Shown here piece after piece: positions 33,880 to 37,915 of a stretch of DNA of 43,498 nt. The stretch comes from a virus. The number at the start of each line of letters is the position of its first letter. Position 1 is the stretch's first letter. The position numbers and the translations under genes were made by a program. Location: positions 1-43,498 of IMG/VR virus record IMGVR_UViG_3300038454_000027; one strand, given 5' to 3'. The notes beneath the pieces were generated by a model. It did no database searches, had not been told where the DNA came from, and saw nothing but the letters and a program-made list of their open reading frames with translations.

Positions 33880-34337
33880 TGCAGGCGGCGACCATGTTGC
33901 CCGAGGTGTGGGCCACTTTGCCCCCGTACCAGCGTGACGCGGTGCGGATCGGGTTCATTAATTATACGCCCCCAGCGGGCGCAGGACGTTGGCCAGAGAC
34001 GGAGTTCGGTTGGGGCATCCTGCTCAACCGATTCGCGAACGCGCGGCGGATCGAGGAGCTTTGGACTCCTGGCCCGGCGCCTGTCACGATAGAAGAGCGC
34101 ACCGCGCGTGGTGCATATGAAGTGTGGAAACTCCACGGTAGTAAAGCATTCAAGCCTCGCCGTATGGTTGTAAAGAAAAATATGCGTCACTCACCAAAAA
34201 AAGTGTTGACGTGGATTTCGAACGGGGCTAAAAAGGTTTTCAGCAAGGCAACGTTCCCTGTAGCAAGCTTTGCCAAAGCTGTCCTCACTAAGTTGCGTAC
34301 AATGAACGTCCCTGAAGTGCCCCCCAGGTACGTTTAA
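33879..34337 (+). CDS. hypothetical protein with very basic C-terminus
   Basis: 152 residues. The first 90 are a mixed domain (LPPYQRDAVRIGFINYTPPAG); the last 60 are Lys-rich and amphipathic (RRMVVKKNMRHSPKKVLTWISNGAKKVFSKATF), suggesting nucleic-acid or membrane binding. It ends in the GTTTAAAC copy (34332-34339) that opens the RNA array, so it may share a transcript with the RNAs. No family recognised. Confidence 0.6.
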   Translation: MQAATMLPEVWATLPPYQRDAVRIGFINYTPPAGAGRWPETEFGWGILLNRFANARRIEELWTPGPAPVTIEERTARGAYEVWKLHGSKAFKPRRMVVKKNMRHSPKKVLTWISNGAKKVFSKATFPVASFAKAVLTKLRTMNVPEVPPRYV

Positions 34338-34344
34338 ACTGTTC

Positions 34345-34415
34345 GTCCGGGTGAATGCTGTCTAAGTCTACACAAGGCATCACAGTACGACTTAGACATT
34401 TCTTGTCACCCGGAC
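34345..34415 (+). ncRNA. Y RNA-like RNA 1 (no tRNA module)
   Basis: 71 bases. Outer stem GTCCGGGTGA with TCACCCGGAC (10 bp), then AUGC, inner stem TGTCTAAGTC with GACTTAGACA (10 bp), apical loop beginning UACA, and TTTCTTG on the 3' side. The core (GAAUGC...UUGUC around an outer stem) is the same as in the six other copies and fits the Ro-binding site of Y RNAs. The loop contains GCAT, which could pair with AUGC. Immediately preceded by GTTTAAAC. Confidence 0.7.
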
Positions 34416-34433
34416 GCGCAACTAGAGGTTTGA

Positions 34434-34520
34434 TCTGCGGCGAATGCCGTTCTGCTGTACAAACTAAGGATTGCAATTCCTTTCGTTGATCAATCAGTAG
34501 AGCAAGATTGTCGCCGCAGA
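34434..34520 (+). ncRNA. Y RNA-like RNA 2 (no tRNA module)
   Basis: 87 bases. Outer stem TCTGCGGCGA with TCGCCGCAGA (10 bp perfect), GAAUGC, an inner stem TTCTGCTG with CAGTAGAG, UACA, and AGATTG before the closing strand. The apical region holds a small AAGGA/TCCTT hairpin. Stems differ in sequence from copy 1 while core bases are the same, which supports selection on structure. Confidence 0.7.
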
Positions 34521-34533
34521 GCAAACTTCTAGA

Positions 34534-34607
34534 CGAAGCGAATGCCATATGGGATTACAACTGGCTCCAAATCAGTGCAACCATCCCATAAGTTTTTTGT
34601 CGCTTCG
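34534..34607 (+). ncRNA. Y RNA-like RNA 3 (no tRNA module)
   Basis: 74 bases. Outer stem CGAAGCGA with TCGCTTCG, AUGC, inner stem TATGGGAT with ATCCCATA, UACA, a small ACTG/CAGT hairpin in the loop, and TTTTTTG before the closing strand. Confidence 0.7.
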
Positions 34608-34627
34608 GCTTGGGGTTTACGACTTGG

Positions 34628-34762
34628 CTAGTCGAATGCTGCTAGTGTCTACAACCAACTTTAGGTTATTGGTTCGAATCCGATCCCGGATCAGAAATGG
34701 GCCGGGTAGCTCAAGTGGATAGAGCGGAAGTTCTCTAACGACACTGCGATATTGTCGACTAG
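34628..34762 (+). ncRNA. yrlA: Y RNA-like RNA 4 with permuted tRNA-like module
   Basis: 135 bases. Outer stem CTAGTCGA/TCGACTAG, GAAUGC, inner stem GCTAGTGTC/GACACTGC with one bulge, UACA. The inserted module has, in order: ACTTT (pairs with GAAGT later), a T-arm with loop TTCGAAT (34668-34684), an acceptor-like stem CCCGG/CCGGG closed by a 12-base loop, and a D-arm GCTC...GAGC with a GG in its loop (34709-34725). This is a tRNA cut open at the anticodon and closed at the acceptor end, the mimicry described for bacterial YrlA. TCTCTAA follows the 5' anticodon strand. Confidence 0.8.
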
Positions 34763-34772
34763 ACTGAACAAC

Positions 34773-34877
34773 GGCGGAGAATGCTCGTAGGTCTACATAT
34801 TTTCATTTCCGAAAATCCCTCACTGCGAGGATCAACTCTCGTTTGGTGTGGATGACTTACTGAATCTTGTCTCCGTC
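34773..34877 (+). ncRNA. Y RNA-like RNA 5 with a non-tRNA module
   Basis: 105 bases. Outer stem GGCGGAGA/TCTCCGTC (one G-T), AUGC, inner stem GTAGGTC/GACTTAC, UACA, and CTTG before the closing strand. The module contains two hairpins (ATTTTC/GAAAAT at 34799-34816; a CCTC/GAGG stem near 34818-34830) and a sequence ATCAACT, which is only faintly T-loop-like. It is either a decayed tRNA-like module or a different one. Confidence 0.65.
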
Positions 34878-35010
34878 ACTGATTTTTGGATGCCCAGAAT
34901 GGGGCGAGGTTAATGGAGCGGGGCGGGCTGGTGTCCATGGTCTGGACCCGTTACCGCATAACAGCGCGGAGAAGGGGCGGAGCCTTCCCCGTTCACCCTT
35001 GAATACAAGG
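34878..35010 (+). other. spacer between RNAs 5 and 6, GC-rich and possibly structured
   Basis: 133 bases, the only long gap in the array. Hairpins GTCCA/TGGAC (near 34933-34947) and AAGG/CCTT within a G-rich run (near 34973-34988) can form. I find neither the GAAUGC/UUGUC core nor a complete tRNA. It could be the remains of an eighth copy. Confidence 0.35.
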
Positions 35011-35143
35011 CTTGGCGAATGCAGGTGTGACTACATTGATCTTGAAAATCAGCGGTTCTGGTTCGAATCCAGGCGCCTCCGCCAAAATGGAGGTGTGGTG
35101 TAATGGTAGCACGTTAGTTGTCACGTCGATTCTTGTCGCCAAG
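35011..35143 (+). ncRNA. yrlA: Y RNA-like RNA 6 with permuted tRNA(Ser)-like module
   Basis: 133 bases. Outer stem CTTGGCGA/TCGCCAAG (8 bp perfect), AUGC, inner stem GGTGTGAC/GTCACGTC (two G-T), UACA. Module: a hairpin TTGAT-CTTGAAA-ATCAG shaped like an anticodon arm (UGA in the anticodon place), T-arm TCTGG-TTCGAAT-CCAGG, CGCCTCC + GCCA + AAAT + GGAGGTG forming a 7-bp acceptor-like stem, then D-arm GTGT...GCAC with GG. The intact GCCA at the end of the 3' strand shows derivation from a real tRNA by circular permutation. Confidence 0.85.
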
Positions 35144-35159
35144 ACGTAAACTATCAGGA

Positions 35160-35294
35160 CGACCCGAATGCTTATTCGGGACTACATCTGTCGGAGATCG
35201 AGGGGTTGGTTCGAGTCCAACAAGCCGCGCCACTATGCGGCTTAGGTGTTCGGGTGAGCACGCGTAAACGTCTCGGATGTTCCTTGTCGGGTCG
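35160..35294 (+). ncRNA. yrlA: Y RNA-like RNA 7 with permuted tRNA-like module
   Basis: 135 bases. Outer stem CGACCCGA/TCGGGTCG, AUGC, a 10-bp inner stem (35173-35182 with 35270-35279), UACA. Module: short hairpin ATCT-GTCGG-AGAT, T-arm GTTGG-TTCGAGT-CCAAC, acceptor-like stem AAGCCGC/GCGGCTT (7 bp perfect) closed by GCCACTAT, D-arm GTGT...GCAC with GGG. GCGTAAAC lies at 35262-35269 and GTTTAAAC directly after the RNA (35300). Confidence 0.85.
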
Positions 35295-35326
35295 GCCTAG
35301 TTTAAACGCAGTAGGGAGGGGAACCT

Positions 35327-35902
35327 ATGGCTATTCAATCTTTGTCAGTAGCTGAACAGATACTTGCTTCTAGTAAAGATGCTTTCAAGGCAGAGCACTT
35401 AAATGACTGGAAGTCTGTGTACTCGCCTGCAGAGCCTCGTGGACCTATTAAGACTTTATCGGCTGCTGATATCGCAGAGCGCCAGCTCAATGTTCTCTAC
35501 AAACATCATACGGTGTTTCTTGACACTCTAGCTGGCAAGCCTTGCTTCGCGCAAATTGCGTCGCTGATTTCTTTTATGGAGAAGTCTATAGAGTCTGCGT
35601 TGAAGTGCGAACCGCAGACCGAGGACAACGACGTGTATGTCAAGGAGCGGCAATTCTTTCTGACTAGGCTCGGGAATGTGAACCCTGACCAGTCGATTAC
35701 GTTCCCAACGTCGATGCAGGCCGACGTCGTTCGTCACGAAGAGCCGGTTTCCGATCACTTCGCGAACGGTTCAAGCCGACAAGCCGTTGTCAATGGCACG
35801 GCAGCTCCAACAGACTTCTGCGCTTTTTACGATGGAACTCGTGTAAACAGCATGGCCGGCGAGTTCGGCCGCTCCGAGGAGCCGAAGAAGCGCAGTAAGT
35901 AG
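35327..35902 (+). CDS. hypothetical protein between RNA array and Ro60 gene
   Basis: 191 residues behind AGGGAGGGG; GTTTAAAC lies 20 bases before the start. N-terminal part helical (LSVAEQILASSKDAFKAEHLNDW), centre with RQLNVLYKHHTVFLDTLAG, C-terminus basic (EEPKKRSK). The place between the Y RNAs and the Ro60 gene makes it a candidate partner of the RNP, but I recognise no RNA-binding domain. Contains GTGTAAAC at 35841. Confidence 0.65.
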   Translation: MAIQSLSVAEQILASSKDAFKAEHLNDWKSVYSPAEPRGPIKTLSAADIAERQLNVLYKHHTVFLDTLAGKPCFAQIASLISFMEKSIESALKCEPQTEDNDVYVKERQFFLTRLGNVNPDQSITFPTSMQADVVRHEEPVSDHFANGSSRQAVVNGTAAPTDFCAFYDGTRVNSMAGEFGRSEEPKKRSK

Positions 35903-36325
35903 TTTTTATAGGACGCCCGGTATCACGCGTGGGCCAAAGAAACGCGCGACAAAAAGGCGGATTGGTGGGCGTCTCGGCCCCTCGCCGATCACAAGCTTAT
36001 ATCTGCTGACTTTGGACGAACTGTCATAGCTGGAACTGTGGCAGTGACCCCGGCGCCTTCCAGGCCGCGCCGGGGCCGAATCCGAACTCACACCGAAAGG
36101 TGTGAAAGGCCCGGCCCTAGTGTCGCTCGGATTACATCCCAACGACGCGACAGCACACCGAGGAACCGGGCGCCCGTCGCTTGCACCTGAAGCGGCGGGC
36201 AACCCATAGAAAACCACGGAAAACCGTCCCCCAACGGCCCGTGGAGGCGGCGTCTCTCCTTGCCCAGGGACGCCGCCGACCTTTTCAACCACGTCGGGTA
36301 TGGAACCCGAATGCAAGGAGTCAAG
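35903..36325 (+). ncRNA. structured leader of the Ro60 gene
   Basis: 423 bases without a gene, strongly structured from 36048 to 36277. Stems: CCCCGGCGC/GCGCCGGGG (36048-36075); TCACACC-GAAA-GGTGTGA with a GNRA loop (36088-36105), enclosed by GGGCCG/CGGCCC; TGTCGC/GCGACA (36121-36152); a 9-bp stem at 36172-36200; ACGG-AAAA-CCGT; and GGCGGCGTC/GACGCCGCC (36246-36277). The first two share bases and exclude each other in part. It could be a 5' UTR control element or a separate RNA. I do not match it to a known class. Confidence 0.5.
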
Positions 36326-37915
36326 ATGGCCAACAAATCCCTATTCCAGTCGCGCCCCGGCCGCGCGATCAAGCCGACCGACACGACAAACAACGCAGGG
36401 GGAACGGCATACGCGCTGTCAGACAAGGCTGCGCTTGCCCAGATCGCCATGACGGGGACGCTGCACGATACGTTCTACGTCGGCGCCGAGATGCAACTTG
36501 CCAGCATTCTTGAGGCCGCCGGTAAGTGCGATCCTCTGTATGTGGCCAAGACGGCTGTCTATGCCCGCAAGCGTGGGTTCATGAAGGACATGCCTGCGCT
36601 ACTGGTCGCCCATCTGTCGACGAGGAACGCCGGACCCGTATTCCCGGCCGCCTTTCGCGCCGTCATTGACAACGGCAAGATGCTGCGGAACTTCGTTCAG
36701 ATCATGCGGTCTGGCGTCACTGGCCGGAAGTCGCTCGGCACGAGGCCGAAAAAACTCGTGCAGGGGTGGCTTGAGAACGCCTATGACGACAGGATCATCC
36801 GCGCCATGGTCGGGCAGGATCCGTCCCTGGCCGATGTGATCAAGATGGTCCATCCCAAGGCTCCGACCAAGATGCGGGAGGCTCTGCTCGCCTATATCAT
36901 TGGCCGACCGTATGAGAAGGGCTTTCTCCCCGAGGCTCTTCTGCAGTTCGAGCGGTTTAAACGGAACCCCAATGGCGTTACGCCTGATGTTCCGTTCCAG
37001 ATGCTGACGGCGCAGCCTTTGACAAAGGAGCAGTGGGCGAACATCGGCTTTGACGCCGGATGGCATATGCTACGGATGAACCTCAACACCTTCGCGCGTC
37101 ACGACGCGTTCAAGGTGGACGGATTCGCCGAGTTCGTTGCGGCTAAGATCGCCGATCCGAACGAGGTCAAGCTGGCCAAGGCGTTCCCGTATCAGATCAT
37201 GCTGGCGCATCACATGTGCGACCCGGCTGTCCCTCCAAAGGTCAAAGACGCTCTGTCTGAGGCCATGGAGTACGCGGTGAGCAACGTCCCGGCCCTTGAC
37301 TGCCGTGTCGCCATCTTCCCCGACGTGTCGGGCTCGATGTCGTCGCCTGTCACTGGCTACCGCAAGGGGGCGACGACGACCGTCACTTGCAACGACGTGG
37401 CGGCGCTCATGACGGCGGCGCTGCTTCGGGTCAACCGGGAAGCCGTGGTTATGCCGTTTGAGGGACAGGTCGTTTCAACGCATCGACTCCGGATCAACCC
37501 GCGCGACACGGTGTTCACCAACGCTCGCAAGTTGGCGTCAATCGGTGGCGGGTCGACGCAGTGTTCCGCGCCGCTGGCCAAGATGAATGCGACCGACACC
37601 CGCGCCGACCTTGTTGTGTACATTTCGGACAGCGAGTCGTGGGTTGATTCGGCGAGCCACGGGCGCGGCCTCGTGTCGTGGAACCGTGGAACACAGACCA
37701 TGGTCGAGTGGGAAAAGTTCCGGCAGCGGAACCCGAAGGCGAAAATGGTCTGCATCGACCTGACGCCGAACAGGACGACACAGGCGTCAGGTCATTCTGA
37801 CATTCTCAATGTCGGCGGCTTCTCGGATGTCGTGTTCGACGTGGTGGCGAACTTCGCCAAGGGCTCCCTTGGCGCGGATCATTGGGTCAAAGAGATCGAG
37901 GCGACGACGTTCTGA
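36326..37915 (+). CDS. rsr: Ro60/TROVE-domain RNA-binding protein
   Basis: 529 residues from the ATG at 36326, with AAGGAG upstream; an in-frame ATG at 36260 lies in the leader hairpins. Family length is about 540. Residues 1-320 are the helical-repeat TROVE ring (AEMQLASILEAAGKCDPLYVAKTAVYARKRGFMKDMPALL; later AKAFPYQIMLAHHMC), which holds RNA ends in its hole and Y RNA on its outer face. Residues about 325-529 are a von Willebrand A domain with MIDAS motif DVSGS (near 333), the Thr in GGGSTQ and the acid in YISDSES, all intact. With Y RNA it forms an RNP that steers misfolded RNA to nucleases such as PNPase or shields Ro. Confidence 0.92.
   Translation: MANKSLFQSRPGRAIKPTDTTNNAGGTAYALSDKAALAQIAMTGTLHDTFYVGAEMQLASILEAAGKCDPLYVAKTAVYARKRGFMKDMPALLVAHLSTRNAGPVFPAAFRAVIDNGKMLRNFVQIMRSGVTGRKSLGTRPKKLVQGWLENAYDDRIIRAMVGQDPSLADVIKMVHPKAPTKMREALLAYIIGRPYEKGFLPEALLQFERFKRNPNGVTPDVPFQMLTAQPLTKEQWANIGFDAGWHMLRMNLNTFARHDAFKVDGFAEFVAAKIADPNEVKLAKAFPYQIMLAHHMCDPAVPPKVKDALSEAMEYAVSNVPALDCRVAIFPDVSGSMSSPVTGYRKGATTTVTCNDVAALMTAALLRVNREAVVMPFEGQVVSTHRLRINPRDTVFTNARKLASIGGGSTQCSAPLAKMNATDTRADLVVYISDSESWVDSASHGRGLVSWNRGTQTMVEWEKFRQRNPKAKMVCIDLTPNRTTQASGHSDILNVGGFSDVVFDVVANFAKGSLGADHWVKEIEATTF

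Follow-up and report, generated by a model that had tools for sequence, protein, structure and literature searches.

Seven predicted bacterial-type Y RNAs upstream of a Ro60 homolog in a tailed phage

Particles of the Ro protein and its Y RNAs have been linked to RNA quality control and to autoimmunity. The abstract of Chen et al. 2014 reportedly mentions over 250 species of bacteria and phages. Here we describe a locus in a 43,498-nucleotide stretch of viral DNA (IMG/VR record IMGVR_UViG_3300038454_000027, positions 1 to 43,498; hereafter the window) in which seven Y RNA-like units precede a gene for a Ro60 homolog. Bacterial Rsr is known to be tethered to PNPase by Y RNA, and DusA and TruB accept the Y RNA YrlA as a substrate (PMC8394870, PMC4726728). 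The rsr-yrlB-yrlA-rtcBA RNA repair operon of Salmonella Typhimurium resembles the window in having Ro and adjacent minimal and tRNA-like Y RNAs on one strand (PMC9879122), and the units of both share the same core in the Rfam models. However, the Salmonella operon contains two Y RNAs together with rtcBA, whereas the window contains seven, placed before Ro with an unrelated open reading frame (ORF) in between, and a search of the 43.5-kb record found no RtcB, with rtcA not searched separately and the record possibly incomplete. For phages, a passage in a later paper credits Y RNAs of mycobacteriophages to Chen et al. 2014 (PMC12282133), and Listeria phage CKA15 has been proposed to make Y RNAs (PMC12282133).

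We consider it highly probable that the locus is a phage-encoded Ro (Rsr) ribonucleoprotein (RNP), taking the identity of its parts jointly with the general mechanism of Ro RNPs. The identity of the units and of the Ro gene is, on its own, close to certain.

The Y RNA array and its shared core

Seven consecutive units lie at 34345-35296 on the plus strand and have one architecture in common (Table 1). Each consists of an outer helix ending in GA/UC, the 5' internal loop AUGC, an inner helix, UACA and then a variable module, and the 3' internal loop of about 7 nt ends in UUG in every unit. The core of bacterial Y RNAs (a basal helix with CGAAUGC opposite UUGUCG) is present in 7/7 units. We scanned both strands of the window for GAATGC...TTGTC plus both helices, with 200 dinucleotide shuffles as the control, and found exactly 7 occurrences in the window versus a mean of 0.005 and a maximum of 1 in the shuffles. 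A first-pass annotation, made from the sequence without database searches, had described seven units with a bipartite core, which the scan bears out. Its further statement that the stem sequences differ completely was broadly right, but in a forced global alignment the units are 58-80% identical to one another because the core is shared. Recent duplication of units was ruled out, as no module of a window unit finds its best match in another window unit. Spacers between units measure 6-18 nt, except for 129 nt between units 5 and 6. This gap (34880-35008) is GC-rich and structured and may contain a decayed eighth unit or another RNA.

We compared the units with three covariance models of our own, whose E-values rest on a short calibration, and with the curated families of Rfam. 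R1 was built from 15 cores and used to search the loci around phage Ro genes, R2 was built from 43 phage units found with R1 (window unit 2 is in this training set), and R3 was built from 124 bacterial units only. Searched against the whole window, R3 recovered five of the seven units (1, 3, 5, 6 and 7) at E 5.5e-15 to 2.4e-6, with the next match at E 5.8. When the filters were turned off for 34300-35400, R3 recovered 7/7 units at 17.8-62.4 bits, and the best score on the minus strand was 8.4 bits. Rfam YrlA (RF02553) significantly matched units 4 and 6 over the whole model and Rfam YrlB (RF02565) weakly matched unit 3, while units 1, 2, 5 and 7 were matched by neither. Compensatory changes on both sides were present at 18/18 base pairs among the 43 phage units, and the covariation score was 0.778, compared with 0.185 after shuffling and no more than 0.164 when partners were slid, in an alignment that was fitted to the structure and so leans in its favor. 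By these sequence comparisons, the seven units are confirmed as bacterial-type Y RNAs. The first-pass annotation had called them Y RNA-like and proposed a covariance-model check against Rfam YrlA and phage genomes; the Rfam matches, the covariation and the recovery of all seven by R3 uphold that call, and the matches to phage genomes are given below.

The units fall into two classes. Units 4, 6 and 7 (137-139 nt) carry a T-arm, an acceptor-like stem and a D-arm in permuted order, as in YrlA, an assignment read from the YrlA model alignment for units 4 and 6 and from the sequence for unit 7. Units 1, 2, 3 and 5 (71-109 nt) have no tRNA-like module, as in YrlB. CCA at the tRNA position is encoded in units 6 and 7 and in 35/252 tRNA-like units across the survey described below. 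Unit 6 could be read as a complete permuted tRNA that includes an anticodon arm (loop CUUGAAA). We dropped this reading, as the arm is not general: a 5-bp/7-nt hairpin occupies the place of the anticodon arm in 32 of the 252 tRNA-like units, and U33 is present in 5/32, the level expected by chance. One phage unit from the survey (L047:8086-8209) has its tRNA-like parts apparently in the normal, unpermuted order (D-arm, T-arm, CCA).

The Ro60 homolog, its relatives and its surroundings

The gene that follows the array encodes a Ro60 homolog by profile, PDB sequence and predicted fold. Its start lies 1,029 nt beyond the array end on the same strand, in keeping with the homolog with intact metal ion-dependent adhesion site (MIDAS) that had first been placed about 1 kb downstream. 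The ORF matched Pfam vWA_Ro60 (2.4e-15, 57.3 bits, cut-off 27.7), PHROG 850 (2.6e-34) and the Rsr of D. radiodurans (PDB 2nvo, 1.6e-18), and its match to Pfam TROVE was below the cut-off (E 0.044, 13.4 vs 23). All five MIDAS residues (D333, S335, S337, T411 and D435) are present and are invariant in 135/135 homologs. An AlphaFold model (predicted local distance difference test, pLDDT, 88; predicted template modeling score, pTM, 0.87) retrieved only Ro60, Rsr and TROVE structures with Foldseek at E<=0.001, among them the Ro60 of Thermus phage phiLo (PDB 9l5y), and the predicted fold, with its TROVE/HEAT-repeat ring, matches Ro60 at a template modeling score (TM) of 0.73-0.76. Directly 5' of the Ro ribosome-binding site lies CCCGAATGC (36303-36316), which belongs to a small hairpin and is similar to the 5' half of the Y core. 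The GAATGC element within this leader (36309) is shared by 7/134 relatives, 5 of them Burkholderiales, where it lies at -21 to -26. It possibly reflects auto-regulation or chance, and we leave it as unexplained.

In a FastTree phylogeny with several open forks, the window Ro stands beside 32 Alphaproteobacteria (support 92) and away from almost every other phage Ro. Its nearest sequence relatives are alphaproteobacterial, at no more than 60% identity. The Ro of another phage locus (L011) falls separately, among Burkholderiales. The phage probably acquired its Ro from an rsr locus of the alphaproteobacterial type, leaving behind the repair enzymes RtcBA. We found Ro or Y RNAs in 0/32 phages with related terminases, and the same RNA search was positive in 25/32 control records, which were nearly all other Ro-encoding phages of the clade, along with the window and three distant actinophages, those three silent.

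As a single-sequence query against IMG/VR, the window Ro found nothing. With an alignment (A1) as the query, we fetched 49 viral loci and 80 bacterial loci (L060-L139), the latter being the best 80 of at least 412 matches and thus biased toward close relatives of the window Ro. In 78/80 bacterial loci, R2 identified 334 units (mean 4.3, range 2-8 per locus); the window together with 27 other phage Ro loci yielded 111 (1-9 per locus), and every one of them (334/334 and 111/111) is on the Ro strand. The gene order was rsr - Y RNAs - rtcB - rtcA in both bacterial loci checked (n=2). At gathering level, Rfam gave 0-2 Y RNAs in each of 12 bacterial loci, mostly one YrlA or none, versus 4-8 by R2, and most units thus escape the curated models. 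It is normal in this Ro clade for one Ro to have several Y RNAs, and seven is high but not exceptional. The expectation in the first-pass annotation of one or two Y RNAs as the usual number in bacteria does not hold for bacteria with related Ro, nor is seven special for a phage, as the array lies toward the upper end of a widespread pattern.

Multi-unit arrays are thus the rule beside this Ro branch and mostly fall under Rfam thresholds, which means that Y RNA diversity has been underestimated. The window locus, in which a mid-sized phage combines one Ro with seven Y RNAs, amounts to a compact natural library, and the question of why there are several Y RNAs per Ro becomes testable. The bacterial loci L060-L139 hold a large unannotated set of Y RNAs, most of them below Rfam thresholds. 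Two viral entries, L004 and L005 (OR845705.1 and OR851267.1), are short contigs from wastewater that are catalogued as phages of Escherichia and Salmonella; each encodes the C-terminus of a Ro (48-50% identity) and carries three Y RNA units, and bacterial contamination is likely. L061 (NZ_VCCH02000080.1), titled Mycobacterium sp. KBS0706, has a Ro near-identical to that of Inquilinus limosus, and its title or assembly may be wrong.

The contig is that of a tailed phage, with genes for a terminase, a portal, a major head protein, an anti-repressor and a DNA polymerase (PolA). The ORF between the array and Ro had no viral relative in our homolog search. The palindrome GTTTAAAC occurs at 29 sites in the window versus 0.46 expected (e.g. 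19790, 21003, 21464, 34332, 35300, 38044 and 39199) and flanks the Y RNA array at both edges. Several sites extend to 20-bp palindromes such as CATGATGTTTAAACATCATG, often just 5' of start codons, and this 20-mer had no exact match in IMG/VR. From its sequence and distribution, GTTTAAAC looks like a phage-wide operator, a stoperator-like element or a transcription signal. The phage also encodes an outer-membrane beta-barrel protein (39226-40035; Pfam OMP_b-brl, 3.4e-12), which is unusual phage cargo.

Table 1. Coordinates of the Y RNA units, the Ro gene and neighboring features in the window
Feature	Coordinates	Strand	Description	Evidence
Y RNA unit 1	34345..34415	+	71 nt, minimal, YrlB-like, without tRNA-like module	R2 54.3 bits; R3 37.7 bits, E 2.5e-8; motif and two helices
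Y RNA unit 2	34434..34520	+	87 nt, minimal	R2 46.9 bits; R3 25.6 bits, filters off; motif and helices
Y RNA unit 3	34532..34609	+	78 nt, minimal, nearest YrlB	R3 44.1 bits, E 4.6e-10; Rfam YrlB 23.9 bits, E 0.078
Y RNA unit 4	34626..34764	+	139 nt, YrlA type	Rfam YrlA 43.4 bits, E 1.7e-6, full model length; R2 33.8 bits; R3 17.8 bits
tRNA-like module of unit 4	34668..34725	+	permuted T-arm, acceptor-like stem, D-arm	sequence and YrlA alignment
Y RNA unit 5	34771..34879	+	109 nt, without tRNA-like module	R3 30.3 bits, E 2.4e-6; R2 39.9 bits
Y RNA unit 6	35009..35145	+	137 nt, YrlA type	R3 62.4 bits, E 5.5e-15; Rfam YrlA 44.8 bits, E 6.6e-7
tRNA-like module of unit 6	35058..35112	+	T-arm, acceptor 3' strand, GCCA, acceptor 5' strand, D-arm	sequence; CCA at tRNA position 74-76
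Y RNA unit 7	35158..35296	+	139 nt, YrlA type	R3 49.1 bits, E 2.1e-11; R2 48.0 bits
tRNA-like module of unit 7	35205..35261	+	T-arm, acceptor stem with CCA in loop, D-arm	sequence; CCA at tRNA position 74-76
191-aa ORF	35327..35902	+	function unknown, between array and Ro	no Pfam or PHROG match
Ro60/Rsr (TROVE + vWA) protein	36326..37915	+	529 aa, intact ORF	Pfam, PHROG, PDB, predicted fold
GTTTAAAC palindrome	34332..34339	.	5 nt 5' of unit 1	
GTTTAAAC palindrome	35300..35307	.	3 nt 3' of unit 7	

Proposed function and competing explanations

We propose that the seven Y RNAs are probably cut from one array transcript and that each would bind the phage Ro ring via the outer helix, common to all seven, and its AUGC / UUG internal loop. 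Past the inner helix comes the module, which varies from unit to unit and may recruit partners. In units 4, 6 and 7, this module is a YrlA-type tRNA mimic in permuted form; in characterized bacteria, modules of this type contact PNPase and tRNA-modifying enzymes. Units 1, 2, 3 and 5 bear a YrlB-type loop or short hairpin there and would serve chiefly to hold and gate Ro. In the infected cell, the RNP would most likely help to degrade structured RNA (tRNA, rRNA) or to control its quality. An RNA-decay tether as the main function is plausible, and we hold it tentatively.

Several points weigh against this picture. Binding to Ro, a single transcript, PNPase tethering and a role in infection are steps that we infer by analogy, and nothing in the window identifies PNPase or another partner. 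For tethering as in RYPER (Rsr-Y RNA-PNPase), the tRNA-like module is the one element seen. A scan of the array for promoters and terminators gave no standard signal and nothing beyond chance, and so favors neither one transcript nor seven. The YrlA scores of units 4 and 6 are below the gathering score of 69 bits, the YrlB match of unit 3 is below a gathering cut-off of 97 bits, and R3 scores low for units 2 and 4 (Table 1). In addition, the contig is linear and may be incomplete.

It may be that the array is a set of interchangeable adaptors, with different modules sending one Ro ring to different nucleases, tRNA enzymes or RNA targets, although we think this unlikely. If true, the locus would be a programmable RNA-decay or tRNA-protection machine, and the same logic would apply to the multi-unit bacterial rsr loci missed by Rfam.

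A function in which RNA decay is not the point is also doubtful: the Ro-held modules could act as tRNA decoys that compete for host or defense enzymes attacking or modifying tRNA, and so protect translation. The T-arm, acceptor-like stem and D-arm of units 4, 6 and 7 would suit such a decoy, as would the encoded CCA of units 6 and 7 and its counterparts in the survey; repair is not an obvious role with RtcB missing from the window, and YrlA has been proposed, not shown, to be a competitive inhibitor of an anticodon nuclease (PMC7790460). However, 4/7 units have no tRNA-like module, and where the mimic is present it lacks a conserved anticodon arm, the hairpin of unit 6 not being general.

The bacterial affinity of the nearest Ro proteins and the absence of Ro and Y RNAs from the 32 phages with related terminases, versus the detection of Y RNAs in most of the other records, are what one would expect of a passenger, an rsr locus that the phage picked up from a host and does not (yet) use when infecting. 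We judge this improbable, because the long branch of the window Ro, its intact ORF with all MIDAS residues and the seven intact folds argue for selection. The order of the locus is also unlike that in bacteria, with the array before Ro and rtcB absent, and Ro plus Y RNAs have been kept by many other phages.

Slimmer still is the prospect that Ro is packaged with its bound Y RNAs and acts as soon as infection begins. Purified particles of Listeria phage CKA15 contained a Ro-like protein, and highly abundant RNAs map up to 2 kb upstream of its gene (PMC12282133). When we checked the CKA15 proposal on its relative P100, neither R2 nor the vWA_Ro60 profile gave a match, which is uninformative as to Y RNAs in CKA15 and makes its comparison with the window remote. 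Finally, chance hairpins or decayed tRNA genes are refuted in practice, as ARAGORN finds no tRNA gene and seven units stand against 0.005 expected, with covariation and recovery by the independent bacterial model R3, although a segment of unit 6 is just above the Rfam tRNA cut-off (29.7 bits).

Comparison with known systems

The locus, read as a Ro RNP, has counterparts in both bacteria and phages. The alphaproteobacterial and other rsr - Y RNA - rtcBA loci of our survey have the same core and several diverse units, tRNA-like and minimal, beside a Ro that is 52-60% identical to that of the window. They differ in carrying 2-8 units and, where checked, in having the array after Ro and before rtcB. 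Measured against the Rfam families, units 4 and 6 align to full YrlA and unit 3 to YrlB, all with scores below gathering level. Large phages with Ro and arrays (e.g. L011, L012, L029, L031 and L047) carry 6-9 same-strand units, as in the window, but their Ro proteins are 45-55% identical to the window Ro and occupy separate tree branches, and their genomes are mostly 90-500 kb.

Family and fold are shared more widely with phage Ro-like proteins, including those of PHROG 850, the 'Ro-like RNA binding protein' of Streptomyces and Mycobacterium phages, the Ro of Myxococcus phage Mx1 and the solved Ro60 of Thermus phage phiLo. Actinophage Ro is about 22-24% identical to the window Ro, and R2 was silent on the three actinophage genomes tested. 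Myxococcus phage Mx1 (W01) shares with the window the combination of Ro and Y RNAs, having two unannotated Y RNA matches (45166-45297 and 45518-45627) about 11 kb before its Ro gene. Phage Ro proteins, which are widely annotated and of which one has been solved, and phage Y RNAs have already been reported, and the locus described here is notable for the number of its units.

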